This document shows positions 25,021-36,047 of a stretch of DNA of 54,418 bases, in pieces. The DNA is from Gammaproteobacteria bacterium (lineage in GTDB: Bacteria; Pseudomonadota; Gammaproteobacteria; Ga0077536). The number at the start of each line of letters is the position of its first letter. The first letter of the stretch is position 1. Location: assembly GCA_019747795.1 (NCBI GenBank), contig JAIEQK010000246.1:1-54418 (forward strand), given 5' to 3'. The translations under genes and the position numbers were made by a program. The notes beneath the pieces are model-generated. The model was not told the origin of the DNA. It worked only from the letters and a program-made list of their open reading frames with translations, and made no database searches.

Positions 25021-25789
25021 TGCCCATGATGTTGAAGCCGCAGTCCACGTAGGTGATCTCGCCGGTGATGGCCGAGGCCAGGTCCGAGCAGAGGAACGCC
25101 GCGGCGTTGCCCACTTCGTCGATGGTCACATTGCGCCGCAAGGGCGCGGTGTTTTCGACGTAGGTGAGGAACTTGCGCATGTCCTTGATGCCGGACGCCG
25201 CCAGCGTGCGTATCGGCCCGGCGGAGATGCCGTTCACCCGTGTGCCTTCCGGCCCCAGGCTCTCCGCCATGTAGCGCACGTTGGCCTCGAGACTCGCCTT
25301 GGCCAGGCCCATCACGTTGTAGCTCGGCATGGTGCGCACCGCGCCCAGGTAGGACAGCGTGAGCATCGCGCCATTGCGCCCCTTCATCAGCGGACGCGCC
25401 GCGTTGCCGAGCGCCGCGAAGCTGTAGGAACTGATCTCGTGGGCGATGCGAAAGCCTTCGCGCGTCACGCTGTCGAGATAACCGTCCTGCAATTCCTCGC
25501 GCGGCGCGAAGGCGACCGAGTGGACCAGGATGTCGAGATGATCCCAGTAGTCGTCCAGGCTTTCGAACACCGCCTGGATCTCCTGGTCGCTGCCGACGTC
25601 GCAGGGCAGGGTGATCTCCGAGCCGAGTTCCGCGGCGAAGTCTTCCACGCGCGACTGCAGGCGCTCGTTCTGATAGGTGAACGCGAGTTCCGCGCCCTCG
25701 CGATGCATGGCCTTGGCAATGCCCCAGGCGATGGACTTGTTGCTCGCCACGCCGACGATGAGTGCGCGCTTGCCTTGCAGAATTCCCAT
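25007..25789 (-). CDS. fabI: Enoyl-[acyl-carrier-protein] reductase (NADH)
   Basis: FabI carries out the last reduction of each fatty acid elongation cycle and is the target of triclosan and isoniazid-type inhibitors. The 260-residue protein has the FabI form of the dinucleotide site ([14 protein letters not shown]), [10 protein letters not shown], and the catalytic Tyr-x6-Lys in [24 protein letters not shown]. The C-terminal [16 protein letters not shown] is typical. The start at ATG 25789 fits all family members; the same frame stays open for a further 2.2 kb upstream, which is only antisense to the ABC gene. It converges on ppiD. Confidence 0.98.
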
Positions 25790-25942: not shown

Positions 25943-28096
25943 ATGCGAGCCCCGTCGACCGCCGCGCTCCTGATACTGTGCCTGGCGGCGCTCGCGGGTT
26001 GCATGGAAGAGCCGTGGAACTCGCCCTATCCGCGCGCTGACAGCGCGAAGGCGATCTTCTATGGCGCTTTCGCCGAGAGACCCAAGCATCTCGACCCCGT
26101 CTCTTCCTACAGCGAGACCGAGGCGCAGTTCACCGGGCAGATCTACGAGCCTGTGCTGCAGTATCACTTCCTCGAGCGACCCTACAAACTGGTGCCGCTG
26201 ACCGCCGAGCACCTGCCGGAGGCGCGCTACTTCGATCGTGACGGTGTAGAACTCGCGGCCACGGCCGCGGCCGAGCAGGTCGCCGAGACGGTGTACCGCA
26301 TCACGCTCAAGCCCGGCATCCAGTTCCAACCGCATCCGGCCTTCGCGCGCGATGCCGAGGGCGGCTATCGCTATCACCAGTTGAGCGCGACACAGGTGGC
26401 GCGTCACGCGACGCTCGCCGAGTTCACGCATACCGGCACCCGCGAGCTCACTGCGGAGGACTACGTCTACCAGATCAAGCGACTCATGCATCCGCACCTG
26501 CACTCGCCCGTGGCCGGGCTGATGGGCAAATACATCAAGGGGCTCGCCGCCTTCGGCGAGCGGTTGCGCGAGGCGGAGGGCGGCAACCACGGCTTCGTCG
26601 ACCTGCGCAAGTACGCGCTCGAGGGCGCGCGCGTGATCGATCGCTATACCTTCGAAATCGTCATCACTGACAAGTATCCGCAGTTCCGCTACTGGCTGGC
26701 GATGTCGTTCTTCGCCCCGGTACCCTGGGAAGCGGACGCGTTCTACGCCCGGCCCGGCATGCGCGAGCGCAACTTCAGCCTCGACTGGTACCCCGTGGGC
26801 ACCGGGCCTTACATGATGGTGGAGAACAATCCGAACCGCCGCATGGTGCTGGCACGCAATCCCAATTTCCGCGGCGAGCCCTACCCGTCCAGCGGCATGC
26901 CGGGCGACGAACAGGCCGGCCTGCTGCGCATGGCCGGCAAGCCCATGCCGTTCATCGACGTCGCCCATTACAGCCTGGAGAAGGAGGAGATCCCGCAGTG
27001 GACCAAGTTCCTGCAGGGCTATTACGACGTGGCTGCGGTGCTGCCGGACAGTTTCGACCAGGCCATCCAGTTCGCCGGCAACGGCGAGGCGGAATTGACA
27101 CAAGACATGCGTGAGAAGGGCGTGCAGCTGGTCACCGCGGTGGAGGAGGCGACCTACTACCTCGGCTTCAACATGCGTGATTCGGTGGTCGGCGGCGACA
27201 GCGAGCGCGCGCGTCTCCTGCGCCGGGCAATCTCCATCGCGGTCGACTTCGAGGAGTTCGTGGCAATCTTCGCCAACGGCCGGGGCGTCGCCGCCCACGG
27301 GCCCATCCCCCCGGAGATCTTCGGTTATCGCGCCGGCCAGGACGGCATCAATCCCTATGTCTACGAATGGCGCGGCGGCCGCGCCGTGCGGCGTGACATC
27401 GCCGAGGCGCGTGCGCTGATGCGCGAAGCCGGCTATCCGGAGGGGCGCGACCCGGCCACCGGTCAGCCGCTGCTGCTGTACTACGAAGCGGTCGCGGCCG
27501 GTCCGAGCGGCAAGGCCCAGCTCAACTGGTATCGCAAGCAGTTCGACAAGCTCGGCATTCAGCTGGTGGTGCGGGTGACCGACTACAACCGCTTCCAGGA
27601 GAAACTGCGCGAAGGCACGGGGCAAATCTTCACCTGGGGCTGGAACGCCGACTACCCGGATCCCGAGAACTTCCTGTTCCTGCTCTACGGACCGAACGGC
27701 AAGGTGCGGCATGGTGGCGAGAACGCCGCCAACTACGCAAGCGAGGCCTTCGACCGCCTGTTCGTCACAATGCGCGCGATGCCCGACGGGCCGGAACGCC
27801 AGGCGCTGATCGACCAGATGATGGAGATGGCGCGGCGCGACGCGCCCTGGGTGTGGGGCTTCCACCCCATGGCCTACGCGCTCAACCACGCCTGGTACGG
27901 CAACTCCAAGCCCAATCTCATGGCGCGTAACTCGCTCAAGTACAAGACCGTGGAGCCGGCGCTGCGCGCGCGGTTGCGACGCGCCTGGAATCGTCCGGTA
28001 CTGTGGCCGGTGGTGGCCGGCCTGGGCCTGCTGGCGCTGGCCGCGGTGCCCGCCTGGCGCGGCCATCGCGCGCGACAGCGAGCGCGAGCCCGATGA
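25943..28096 (+). CDS. Family 5 extracellular solute-binding protein (peptide type), lipoprotein with a C-terminal membrane segment
   Basis: The 717-residue protein is a DppA/OppA/YejA-class binding protein. It has a lipoprotein signal ([12 protein letters not shown]), then the SBP_bac_5 body ([81 protein letters not shown]). The last 40 residues hold a transmembrane helix ([19 protein letters not shown]) and a basic tail, which is unusual for this family. ATG 25943 is used because a lipoprotein n-region is short; ATG 25886 is in frame upstream. It is followed by two permeases and a double ATPase with overlapping stops. Confidence 0.88.
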
Positions 28097-29070
28097 GCGC
28101 CTACCTGCTGCGTCGCGCGCTCTACGCGCTGCCCATCCTGCTCGGGGTGAACCTGATCACCTTCGCCCTGTTCTTCGTGGTCAATTCACCCGACGACATG
28201 GCGCGCATGCAACTCGGCAACAAGCACATCACCCAGGCGGCGGTGGAGCAGTGGAAGGCGGAGCGCGGCTACAACCGGCCATTGCTGTGGAACGCCCAGG
28301 CCGACGGCCTCGCGCGCGCCACCGACACCATCTTCTATCGCAACACCCTGCGCCTGTTCCTGTTCGACTTCGGCCAGTCGGACAGCGGCCGCGACATCGG
28401 CTTCGACATCGCGCAGCGCATGGGCCCGAGTCTCGCGGTCAGCGTGCCCGTGCTGATCCTGGAACTGGCGCTGGCCATCGGACTCGCGCTCGTCGTGGCA
28501 GTGCTACGCGGCACCTATCTCGACCTGTGGGCGGTGGTGCTGTGCGTGGCGATGATGTCGGTGTCGATGCTGTTCTACATCATCGGTGGCCAGTTCCTGT
28601 TCGGCAAACTGCTGCGCCTGGTGCCGATCTCGGGCTACGACCAGGGCCTCGCCGGCTTCAAGTTCGTGGCCCTGCCGGTGCTGGTCAGCGTCGTCGCGGC
28701 GCTCGGTTATGGCACGCGCTGGTATCGCACGCTGTTCCTCGAGGAGATCAATCGCGACTACGTGCGCACCGCGCGCGCCAAGGGCCTCGGTGAGCGCGCG
28801 GTGATGCTGCGCCATGTCCTGCGCAACGCCCTCATCCCGATATTGACCGGCGTGGTGGTGCTGCTGCCGTCGCTGTTCATCGGCAACCTCATCATCGAGT
28901 CCTTCTTCGGCATTCCCGGGCTCGGCAGCTACACCATCGAAGCCATCCAGAGCCAGGACTTCGCCATCGTGCGCGCGATGGTGTTCCTGGGCTCGCTGCT
29001 CTACATCGTGGGACTGCTGCTGACCGATGTGTCCTACACGCTCGCCGATCCGCGCGTGCGCCTGGAGTGA
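28093..29070 (+). CDS. ABC transporter permease, peptide type (DppB/YejB-like)
   Basis: The 325-residue inner-membrane protein begins with a membrane helix ([23 protein letters not shown]) and has about six in all. The EAA loop that contacts the ATPase is seen in [46 protein letters not shown] near the end is typical of BPD_transp_1 peptide permeases. It overlaps the binding-protein gene by 4 bp (ATGA), so the two are translationally coupled. Confidence 0.93.
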
Positions 29071-33998: not shown

Positions 33999-34526
33999 TC
34001 ATTTCTTCGGCACGCCCAGCGCCGCCAGGCGCGCGGCCATGTCGGCGCCCGCCTTGAGCGCGCTCACCTCCTTGTCGATGTAGGCGATCTTGCCCGCGGC
34101 ATCGATGTAGAAGGTCCAGCGCGAGGCGAAGCCCATCATGCCGAGCACGCCGTAGGCCTCCGCGGCCTGCTTGGTCGGGTCGGCCAGGACAGGAAAGTCG
34201 GCCTGGTTCGCCTCGGCGAACTTGCGGCTGGTCTCCGCGTCTTCGGTGCTCGCCATGAAGTAGGCGACGTCGAAGGTCTTCAGCACCTCGCCGCTCTCAC
34301 GGAGCGACTTGCACTGCGCGGTTCAGCCGCCGGTGAAGGCTTTCGGAAACCAGGCCAGCACCACGGTCTTGCCGCGGTAGTCGGCCAGGCGGTGGACCTT
34401 GCCGTCCGAGCCCGTCAGCGCGAAATCGGGCGCGCTGTCGCCGACCTTCAGATCGGCAGCCTGCGCCAGTCCGCACAGCGTGCCGAGGCCGAGGCCCAGC
34501 AGCAGGCGGCGTAGAGTCTTGTTCAT
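33999..34526 (-). CDS. Exported peroxiredoxin with in-frame UGA at the peroxidatic Cys: probable selenoprotein
   Basis: Read through the UGA at 34325-34323, this is one 175-residue peroxiredoxin without a frameshift. It has a signal peptide ([23 protein letters not shown]), the thioredoxin-fold start ([19 protein letters not shown]), and the catalytic segment [20 protein letters not shown]. Sec68 takes the peroxidatic place of PxxxTxxC, Cys72 is a possible resolving residue, and ASRWTFYID supplies the conserved Arg. The C-terminal 95 residues are intact. A hairpin that fits the bacterial SECIS rules lies just downstream (34290-34308). The ATG has GGGAG 7 nt upstream. It lies 64 bp after gor. 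A sequencing error or Cys-to-stop mutation is the alternative, but the intact frame on both sides speaks against decay. Confidence 0.88.
34290..34308 (-). promoter_or_regulatory. Putative bacterial SECIS hairpin
   Basis: On the minus strand GTCGCTC and GAGCGGC form a 7-bp stem (one U-G pair) around the loop CGTGA. The stem begins 14 nt after the UGA and the loop begins 21 nt after it. A G is the second base of the loop. The published consensus asks for a loop 16-37 nt from the UGA with G in one of its first two places, which is met. It lies inside the coding sequence. Confidence 0.75.
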
Positions 34527-34590: not shown

Positions 34591-35943
34591 TCACGCCACA
34601 GGTTCGCGCATGGTCACCCATTCCTCGGCCGAGGTCGGGTGGATGCCGATGGTGCGGTCGAACATCGCCTTGGTCGCGCCGGCCTTGATGGCCACGGCCA
34701 GGCCCTGGATGGACTCGCCCGCATCGGGTCCCACCATGTGCGCGCCGACCACGCGATCGCTGGCCTTGTCGACCACCAGCTTCATGAGAGTCTTCTCCTT
34801 GCTGCCGGACAGCGTGTGCTTGAGCGGCGTGAAGGTAGAGCGAAAGATCACCAACTCGCCGAACTTCTCCCGCGCCTGGGCCTCGGTGTAGCCGACGGTC
34901 GCCAGGTTGGGATGACTGAACACCGCGCTCGGCACGTACTCGTAGTCCACCGGCCGTTCGTGATCGCGATACAGGTGCCACGCAAGCGCCATGCCTTCGG
35001 CGAGCGCCACGGGCGTGAGATTGATGCGGTCGGTGACGTCACCGATGGCATAGATCGACGGCACGCTGCTGCGGTAATTGCCGTCGACCTCGATGGCGCC
35101 GGCGTCGTTCATCTGCACGCCCAGCGCTTCCAGTCCGAGATTCGCCGAGTTCGGCCGCCGCCCGGTGGCGTAGAGCACGAGGTCGGTGTCCAGCGTGCTG
35201 CCGTGGGCCAGGTGCACGCGCAGCGCCTCGCCGTGGCGCTCGATGCGCGCAATGTCGGTGTCGAAGCGCAGGTCGACGCCCTTCTTGCGCATCTCCTCGG
35301 CCAGGAACCTGCGGCAGTCGTCGTCGAAGCCGCGCAGGAACAGCGGACCGCGGTAGAGCTGGATCGTCTCGCTGCCGAGGCCGTTGAAGATGCCGGCGAA
35401 CTCGACCGCGATGTAGCCGCCGCCGACCACCACCGCGCGGCGCGGCAGGCGTTCGAGGAAGAATACTTCGTTGGACGTCACAGCGAGTTCGCTGCCGGGA
35501 AACTGGGGCACGTAGGGCCAGCCGCCGGTCGCGACCAGGATGCGCTCGGTGGTGTAGTCCCGGCCGTCGACGCGCACGGTGTGCGCATCGACGACGGTCG
35601 CGCGGCCGCGCAGCACCGTGGCGCCGGCGTTGTCCATGAGCCGCTGGTAGATGCCGTTCAGCCGCTCGATTTCCTCGTTCTTGTTCGCGACCAGGGTCGG
35701 CCAATCGAAGCTGCCGGGCGTGTGGGTCCAGCCGAAGCCGACCGCGTCGTGCACTTCTTCCGCGACGTGCGCGGCGTAGGCGAAGAGCTTCTTCGGCACG
35801 CAGCCCACGTTCACGCAGGTGCCGCCCATGTAGCGCTCTTCAGCCATCGCGACCCGCGCGCCGAAGCTCGCGGCCATGCGTCCGGCGCGCACGCCGCCCG
35901 AGCCGCCGCCGATGATGAAGAGATCGTACTGATATGCGGACAT
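34591..35943 (-). CDS. gor: Glutathione-disulfide reductase
   Basis: The 450-residue flavoenzyme reduces GSSG with NADPH in the cytoplasm. Features in order are the FAD site ([19 protein letters not shown]), the redox-active CVNVGC motif ([13 protein letters not shown]), the NADPH site [20 protein letters not shown], the second FAD segment [10 protein letters not shown], and the C-terminal catalytic His in [17 protein letters not shown] lies 6 nt before ATG 35943; the frame is open to 36009. The UGA-containing peroxiredoxin follows 64 bp later on the same strand, so they probably share a transcript. The gene is divergent from HMG-CoA lyase. Confidence 0.95.
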
Positions 35944-36047
35944 GACAACTCCTGACCTGGACAGCGTCGCTAGTATAGTGGCTCGTGTGAGCGCGGCGGC
36001 GGCGCGCATTGGCTACAATCGGCGCGAACAGGCCAGGGGAGCGCAGC

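Follow-up and report, generated by a model that had tools for sequence, protein, structure and literature searches.

A selenocysteine (Sec)-containing peroxiredoxin family has reportedly been described in Eubacterium acidaminophilum. Sec-peroxiredoxins with a TxxU motif are listed as an experimentally verified family in PMC13188914, and two further papers count 43 Sargasso Sea sequences (PMC1088965) and 253 sequences in GOS samples (PMC2398784). According to PMC1794560, low oxygen favors the Sec form, and four selenoproteins of three families had already been counted in Acidobacteria. The first-pass annotation of the present locus had stated that Sec-peroxiredoxins are known in some bacteria. 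Given that such enzymes have long been known, the surprise offered by a further example is limited.

The gene described here lies in a 54,418-nucleotide stretch of gammaproteobacterial DNA, the whole of which is referred to as the window. When TGA was read as U, the minus-strand frame gave 175 residues with a sole internal stop at codon 68, and the final stop of the gene is also TGA (34001-33999). The internal stop falls within the site motif [13 protein letters not shown], in which the pattern PxxxTxxC places the peroxidatic Cys at U68. Translation bore out the earlier description of two minus-strand frames that share one phase and meet at a UGA, with this UGA at the catalytic Cys position. 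The flanking sequence had been described as conserved-looking and free of other stops, and dN was indeed lower than dS on either side of the UGA in all 12 pairs tried (ungapped comparison). For L022/L023, the values downstream of the UGA were 0.040 (dN) and 0.922 (dS). The downstream half is therefore under protein-level selection. The internal stop is almost certainly read as selenocysteine, and we infer from the computations presented below that Sec is inserted at codon 68. The preferred reading, held with very little reservation, is that the gene encodes an exported Sec-containing peroxiredoxin in which UGA codon 68 would be decoded by SelB and tRNA-Sec by way of a hairpin. A stop-to-stop reading cuts such a gene in two, so that annotation can miss the enzyme. 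The features considered are collected in Table 1.

Table 1. Features of the Sec-peroxiredoxin locus (window positions) and Sec machinery of the same genome (contig:positions)
Feature	Position	Strand	Details and basis
Sec-peroxiredoxin gene	33999..34526	(-)	175 codons + stop, one UGA read through; Pfam AhpC-TSA/Redoxin, orthologues
Signal-peptide-like N-terminus	34458..34526	(-)	[26 protein letters not shown] cleavage-like site; sequence, hydrophobicity
UGA almost certainly read as selenocysteine, residue 68, peroxidatic position	34323..34325	(-)	Translation; TGA 92/100, TGC/TGT 8/100 close loci
Cys72 codon (U+4), putative resolving Cys	34311..34313	(-)	In 100/100 close loci
SECIS-like hairpin	34290..34308	(-)	7-bp stem 34308-34302 with 34296-34290; loop CGUGA 34301-34297
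Glutathione reductase-like Pyr_redox gene	34591..36009	(-)	Immediately upstream, 64-nt gap; Pfam
selA	C291:16182-17531		593 bits, above curated cut-off, own genome
selB	C291:17573-19456		419 bits, above curated cut-off, own genome
selD	C281:31694-32524		266 bits, above curated cut-off, own genome
tRNA-Sec	C291:20917-21008		62.4 bits, above curated cut-off; ARAGORN tRNA-SeC(tca)

Conservation of the UGA was assessed in 36 genomes of the window's order (own genome included) and in a scan of GTDB genomes, from which the best 80 of 308 relatives were examined. A close orthologue with 53-99% identity was found in 20 of the 36 order genomes, the own genome among them. All 20 contain exactly one in-frame stop, a TGA at the same codon, which argues that the in-frame TGA is not due to chance. 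Among the best 80 of 308 scanned relatives, the site codon was TGA in 72, TGC in 6 and TGT in 2. The two samples together provide 100 close loci, 14 of the 80 repeating order genes, with 75 distinct UGA sequences. Across these 100 loci, the codon is TGA (92), TGC (6) or TGT (2), and TAA, TAG or a Trp codon is seen in none; the site interchanges with Cys only. The question of whether homologues carry UGA or Cys at this position, raised at the outset, is thus answered for the close ones by these two and nothing else. The motif over the 100 loci is P-K-A-[FY]-T-[GS]-G-[UC]-T-x-[EQ]-C, with T65 and C72 present throughout; K occupies U+5 in 89 loci, and C is not among the letters listed there. Ten loci of 32-37% identity, all with TGC (L041-L050), were excluded as paralogues by an identity limit of 48% and proved to be BCP-type where checked. 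The gene is also carried by two metagenome bins titled Klebsiella pneumoniae (L053 and L054), the UGA regions of which match those of order genomes G020 and G006 (loci L023 and L027) exactly. Given this identity and the place of both loci among order rows in the tree, the Klebsiella labels look wrong.

According to PMC1088965, a bacterial SECIS has a stem-loop shortly after the UGA whose small apical loop contains a G. Such a stem-loop is present here: the stem begins 14 nucleotides beyond the UGA, the hairpin lies inside the coding sequence, and the second loop base is an invariant G in the 75 distinct UGA rows. Across these 75 genes, 93.3% of stem cells were paired compared with 83.6% after shuffling, and 43 double changes were observed compared with 8.2; neither value was reached in any of 500 shuffles. 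Displacing the 3' arm by 1-3 columns lowered pairing to 33-68% of cells. When codons were redrawn synonymously, 257 ± 13 cells were paired, with a maximum of 294 in 1000 draws, compared with 490 of 525 observed. Two further measures were weaker, namely the number of pairs that show a double change (5 versus 3.3, reached in 10 of 500 shuffles) and the number of pair types (12 versus 9.8, 23 of 500). The hairpin is thus kept by compensatory change and synonymous choice and is under selection, a claim that rests on the shuffle counts for the named structure and on the synonymous-codon null. RNAalifold recovered 6 of the 7 stem pairs from the 20 order sequences, 3 of them with compensatory change. 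It returned no pairs for all 75 UGA rows, which may be due to six rows whose register is slid by 3 nucleotides. These six genes (L079, L085, L086, L117, L128 and L129) form all 7 pairs in the slid register with an 8-nucleotide loop, which suggests that the SECIS register may move by one codon. Taken alone, the 45-nucleotide hairpin region of the window was not unusually stable (z -1.14, with 27 of 200 shuffles being equally or more stable).

In the eight genes with Cys at the site, 34 of 56 hairpin cells were paired compared with a null of 27.4 ± 3.2, and 30 of 1000 draws were as high. This excess arises partly because one of them, L073 (TGC; L073:4001-4519), keeps all 7 stem pairs; the other seven keep 3 to 6 in the same register. 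The hairpin of L073 is possibly a fossil SECIS. Given the intact hairpin and the presence of selB in the same genome, L073 looks like a gene that has recently switched from Sec to Cys.

The own genome (5.94 Mb, 331 contigs, 99% complete) contains selA, selB, selC and selD, the four genes whose absence had been named in the first-pass annotation as an argument against Sec. The selD match spans positions 38-310 of the profile and is cut by the contig end at 32531. A second RF01852 match above the cut-off, on contig C259, is a tRNA-Ser by ARAGORN. Across the order sample, 31 of the 36 genomes contain selA, and so do 18 of the 20 that carry the Sec-peroxiredoxin gene, the two carriers in which selA was not found being G021 (62% complete) and G029 (87%). 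A selB gene scored above the cut-off in 49 of 60 UGA genomes (17/20 + 32/40) and in 4 of 10 Cys genomes (4/8 + 0/2), giving a Fisher p of 0.010 for related genomes that are not independent. Of the 72 UGA loci from the scan, the selB search covered all but 12, the UGA regions of which are identical to those of order genomes tested for selA. The 11 of 60 UGA genomes in which no selB scored above the cut-off are nearly all metagenome bins by title, and in one of these 11 the selB gene is broken into two frames.

Two more Redoxin-like frames with an in-frame TGA were noted on the minus strand of other contigs of this genome. One (L140, contig C327, ~27841-28140) has the TGA in the motif WSSWUGC and is probably a second selenoprotein, of the WAxxUGC type. 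Several other genomes of the order have weak matches of about this length that also contain a TGA. The other (L141, contig C315, ~25045-25350) has the TGA in FRGHWUPYC, a UxxC arrangement, and is probably a third selenoprotein.

With C in place of U, residues 27-155 matched the Pfam families AhpC-TSA (4.1e-31, 107.9 bits) and Redoxin (8.6e-24, 84.4 bits), above the gathering thresholds of 26 and 26.6 bits, respectively. Residues P61, T65, C72 and R136 and the site residue 68 are invariant in 66 aligned rows, so that both the peroxiredoxin pattern PxxxTxx(C/U) and a conserved Arg are present; R136 would be the catalytic Arg. An AlphaFold model built with C for U from the 66-row alignment had a mean pLDDT of 92.4 and a pTM of 0.84, with values of 53-57 over residues 1-20, and places residue 68 and Cys72 in the same helix (66-77). 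The closest PDB folds were BCP (9a4d_B, Z 22.9), Sulfolobus Bcp1 (22.8), PrxQ (22.7) and BcpB (22.7), followed by a Burkholderia AhpC-type protein (22.6) and AhpE (22.5), differences in Z of less than 1 being regarded as ties. As modelled, the Sec protein is a BCP/AhpE-type peroxiredoxin. The own genome also has Cys-type genes that we take, from their motifs, to be BCP-like and AhpC-like, so that the Sec enzyme is an addition and not the sole peroxiredoxin.

The N-terminus, [23 protein letters not shown], looks signal-peptide-like. In 97 of the 100 close loci, an 11-residue stretch with a Kyte-Doolittle mean of at least 1.6, a crude measure of hydrophobicity, is present in the upstream frame, and the remaining three reach 1.55-1.58. 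Five close loci have no ATG at the N-terminus and would need another start. The cell probably exports the Sec-peroxiredoxin, as had been proposed earlier, and it is this N-terminus that points to export.

The first-pass annotation had drawn attention to an adjacent glutathione reductase. The adjacency is real: the upstream Pyr_redox gene, presumably a glutathione reductase from its motifs, is also found next to the gene in 14 of the 20 order orthologues. A tblastn search (1e-6) of the flanks outside the order (~4 kb or less on each side) detected no homologue of this gene. Glutathione reductase was considered as an obligate partner and rejected, and a shared pathway is not claimed. Clustering of the neighboring ORFs of L051-L130 gave no partner common across phyla, and the largest clusters (9 loci each) were the order's own neighbors. 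With its likely start at MSAYQYD, where the homologue at L061 also begins, the glutathione reductase-like protein has no space for a signal peptide, and the two proteins may therefore lie in different compartments. As no such neighbor was found beyond the order within these flanks, a functional link between the two genes is weak. Beyond the Pyr_redox gene upstream, the other strand carries HMGL-like and EamA genes; on the downstream side of the Sec-peroxiredoxin gene, DUF427 is followed by a MATE gene on the opposite strand.

A quick tree of 81 rows was calculated without bootstrap, with order loci L022-L040 and near-copies left out. In this tree, whose outgroup was not split off by a single branch and for which the program warned of long branches meeting, a clade of 71 rows (62 Sec and 9 Cys) has a long stem and an SH-aLRT support of 99. 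Over the whole tree, Sec and Cys require 7 changes. The rows come from Acidobacteriota, Planctomycetota, Verrucomicrobiota and Pseudomonadota, with single records labelled Myxococcota, Chloroflexota and Actinomycetota, and most clade rows are from metagenome bins by title. The gene of L074, from a bin named Woeseiaceae, falls inside an Acidobacteria group (support 95), and its neighboring genes are common to L098, L099, L102, L103 and L116; misbinning, mislabelling or transfer of the whole stretch would each account for this. In a phylum sample, at least 7 of 398 genomes matched the clade profile at E ≤ 1e-35, some matches possibly having been missed as only 8 first-look candidates were scored in most listed genomes. 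Among these 7, TGA was found in the own genome only; the clade also takes in G431 and G405, both with Cys, whereas the other four lie outside it with BCP-like motifs. The chances are about even that the clade is a distinct, unnamed branch of Sec-peroxiredoxins that acts extracytoplasmically through a U-x3-C selenenylsulfide cycle, with selenium chemistry exported for peroxide defence, and that it has switched repeatedly between Sec and Cys in its spread over Acidobacteriota, Planctomycetota, Verrucomicrobiota and a gammaproteobacterial family without cultured members. Given that UGA, hairpin and selB can be read from each genome, the clade suits the question of when bacteria keep Sec and when Cys, for which it is a ready data set.

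The lone in-frame TGA in a window taken from a 331-contig assembly looks just as it would if the UGA were a real or false nonsense mutation, with a downstream half that is dead or mis-sequenced. Against this, the TGA recurs at one and the same position in all 20 order orthologues and in 72 of the best 80 of 308 scanned relatives, dN stays below dS downstream in every pair tried, and neither TAA nor TAG occupies the site in any of these loci. The conservation of the UGA already refutes a pseudogene or sequencing error, and the probability left to either is negligible. Readthrough itself does not name the residue inserted, and a reassigned code or near-cognate suppression would place Trp or Cys at codon 68 of a non-seleno protein. 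We consider this very improbable: the site alternates with Cys and never with Trp in the 100 close loci, the Sec machinery is present in the genome, the hairpin is conserved, and the TGA at the end of the gene indicates that UGA also terminates here.

A different question is posed by the chemistry, as the Sec protein might act mainly as an extracytoplasmic thiol/disulfide oxidoreductase through U-x3-C and not as a peroxidase. The exported-looking N-terminus, the second Cys at U+4 in all 100 loci and a match to the ResA model (49 bits against a cut-off of 170) are consistent with such a role. By contrast, the peroxiredoxin active site, PxxxTxxU with Arg136, is kept, the best fold matches are peroxidases, and the UxxC/UxxU spacing of Prx-like thiol:disulfide oxidoreductase selenoproteins, as listed in PMC13188914, is absent. 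Such a main role is unlikely, although it is the most probable of the rival readings. On the preferred reading, an exported Sec-peroxiredoxin, tRNA-Sec delivered by SelB would decode UGA codon 68 as directed by the hairpin 14 nucleotides beyond it, and the signal peptide would take the protein out of the cytoplasm, to the periplasm. Together with Pro61, Thr65 and Arg136, Sec68 at the N-terminal end of the active-site helix would reduce H2O2 or organic hydroperoxides and be converted to a selenenic acid. Cys72, one helix turn away, would probably resolve this as a selenenylsulfide, which a thioredoxin-like or thiol reductant could then reduce. An exported Sec enzyme of this kind would raise the question of which extracytoplasmic reductant serves it.

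In BCP/PrxQ enzymes (thioredoxin-dependent thiol peroxidases), the resolving Cys lies at +5. The own-genome BCP-type homologue conforms to this spacing (GCTKEAC), whereas the clade, including all 100 close loci, has its second Cys at +4. The BCP model NF006960 gave the best NCBIfam score, 82.9 bits, and is matched by 66 of 66 members; BCP/PrxQ structures are also among the closest folds (9a4d_B as above; 3ixr, Z 22.7). The protein nevertheless falls under the 140-bit cut-off of this model, as it does for all 12 NCBIfam models matched, and differs from BCP/PrxQ in having Sec for Cys and an exported-looking N-terminus. AhpE of Mycobacterium tuberculosis (1xxu_A) is similarly close (Foldseek 5.1e-15, 34% identity; VIA Z 22.5 with an rmsd of 1.8 across 147 residues) but is a 1-Cys enzyme by its entry title, unlike the clade with its second Cys at U+4. 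Among selenoprotein models, the protein scored 41 bits with PrxU (NF040737; cut-off 270) and matched Prx-SUH (NF045827) and WAxxUGC (NF041054) weakly, at 27.5 and 25.7 bits, far under their cut-offs of 298 and 300; by their names, the latter two have different Sec motifs.

No description of an exported Sec-peroxiredoxin clade was found in the literature searched, with most subscription papers and figures outside the search. That the gene encodes a genuine selenoprotein is well supported, and published TxxU sets may already include members of the exported-looking clade. As described in PMC13188914, PMC1088965 and PMC2398784, the known TxxU Sec-peroxiredoxins (PF00578/COG1225) share with this protein the AhpC/TSA fold, a Sec at the peroxidatic position of PxxxTxxU and widespread Cys homologues, whereas the signal-peptide-like N-terminus and the second Cys at U+4 set the present protein apart from them.
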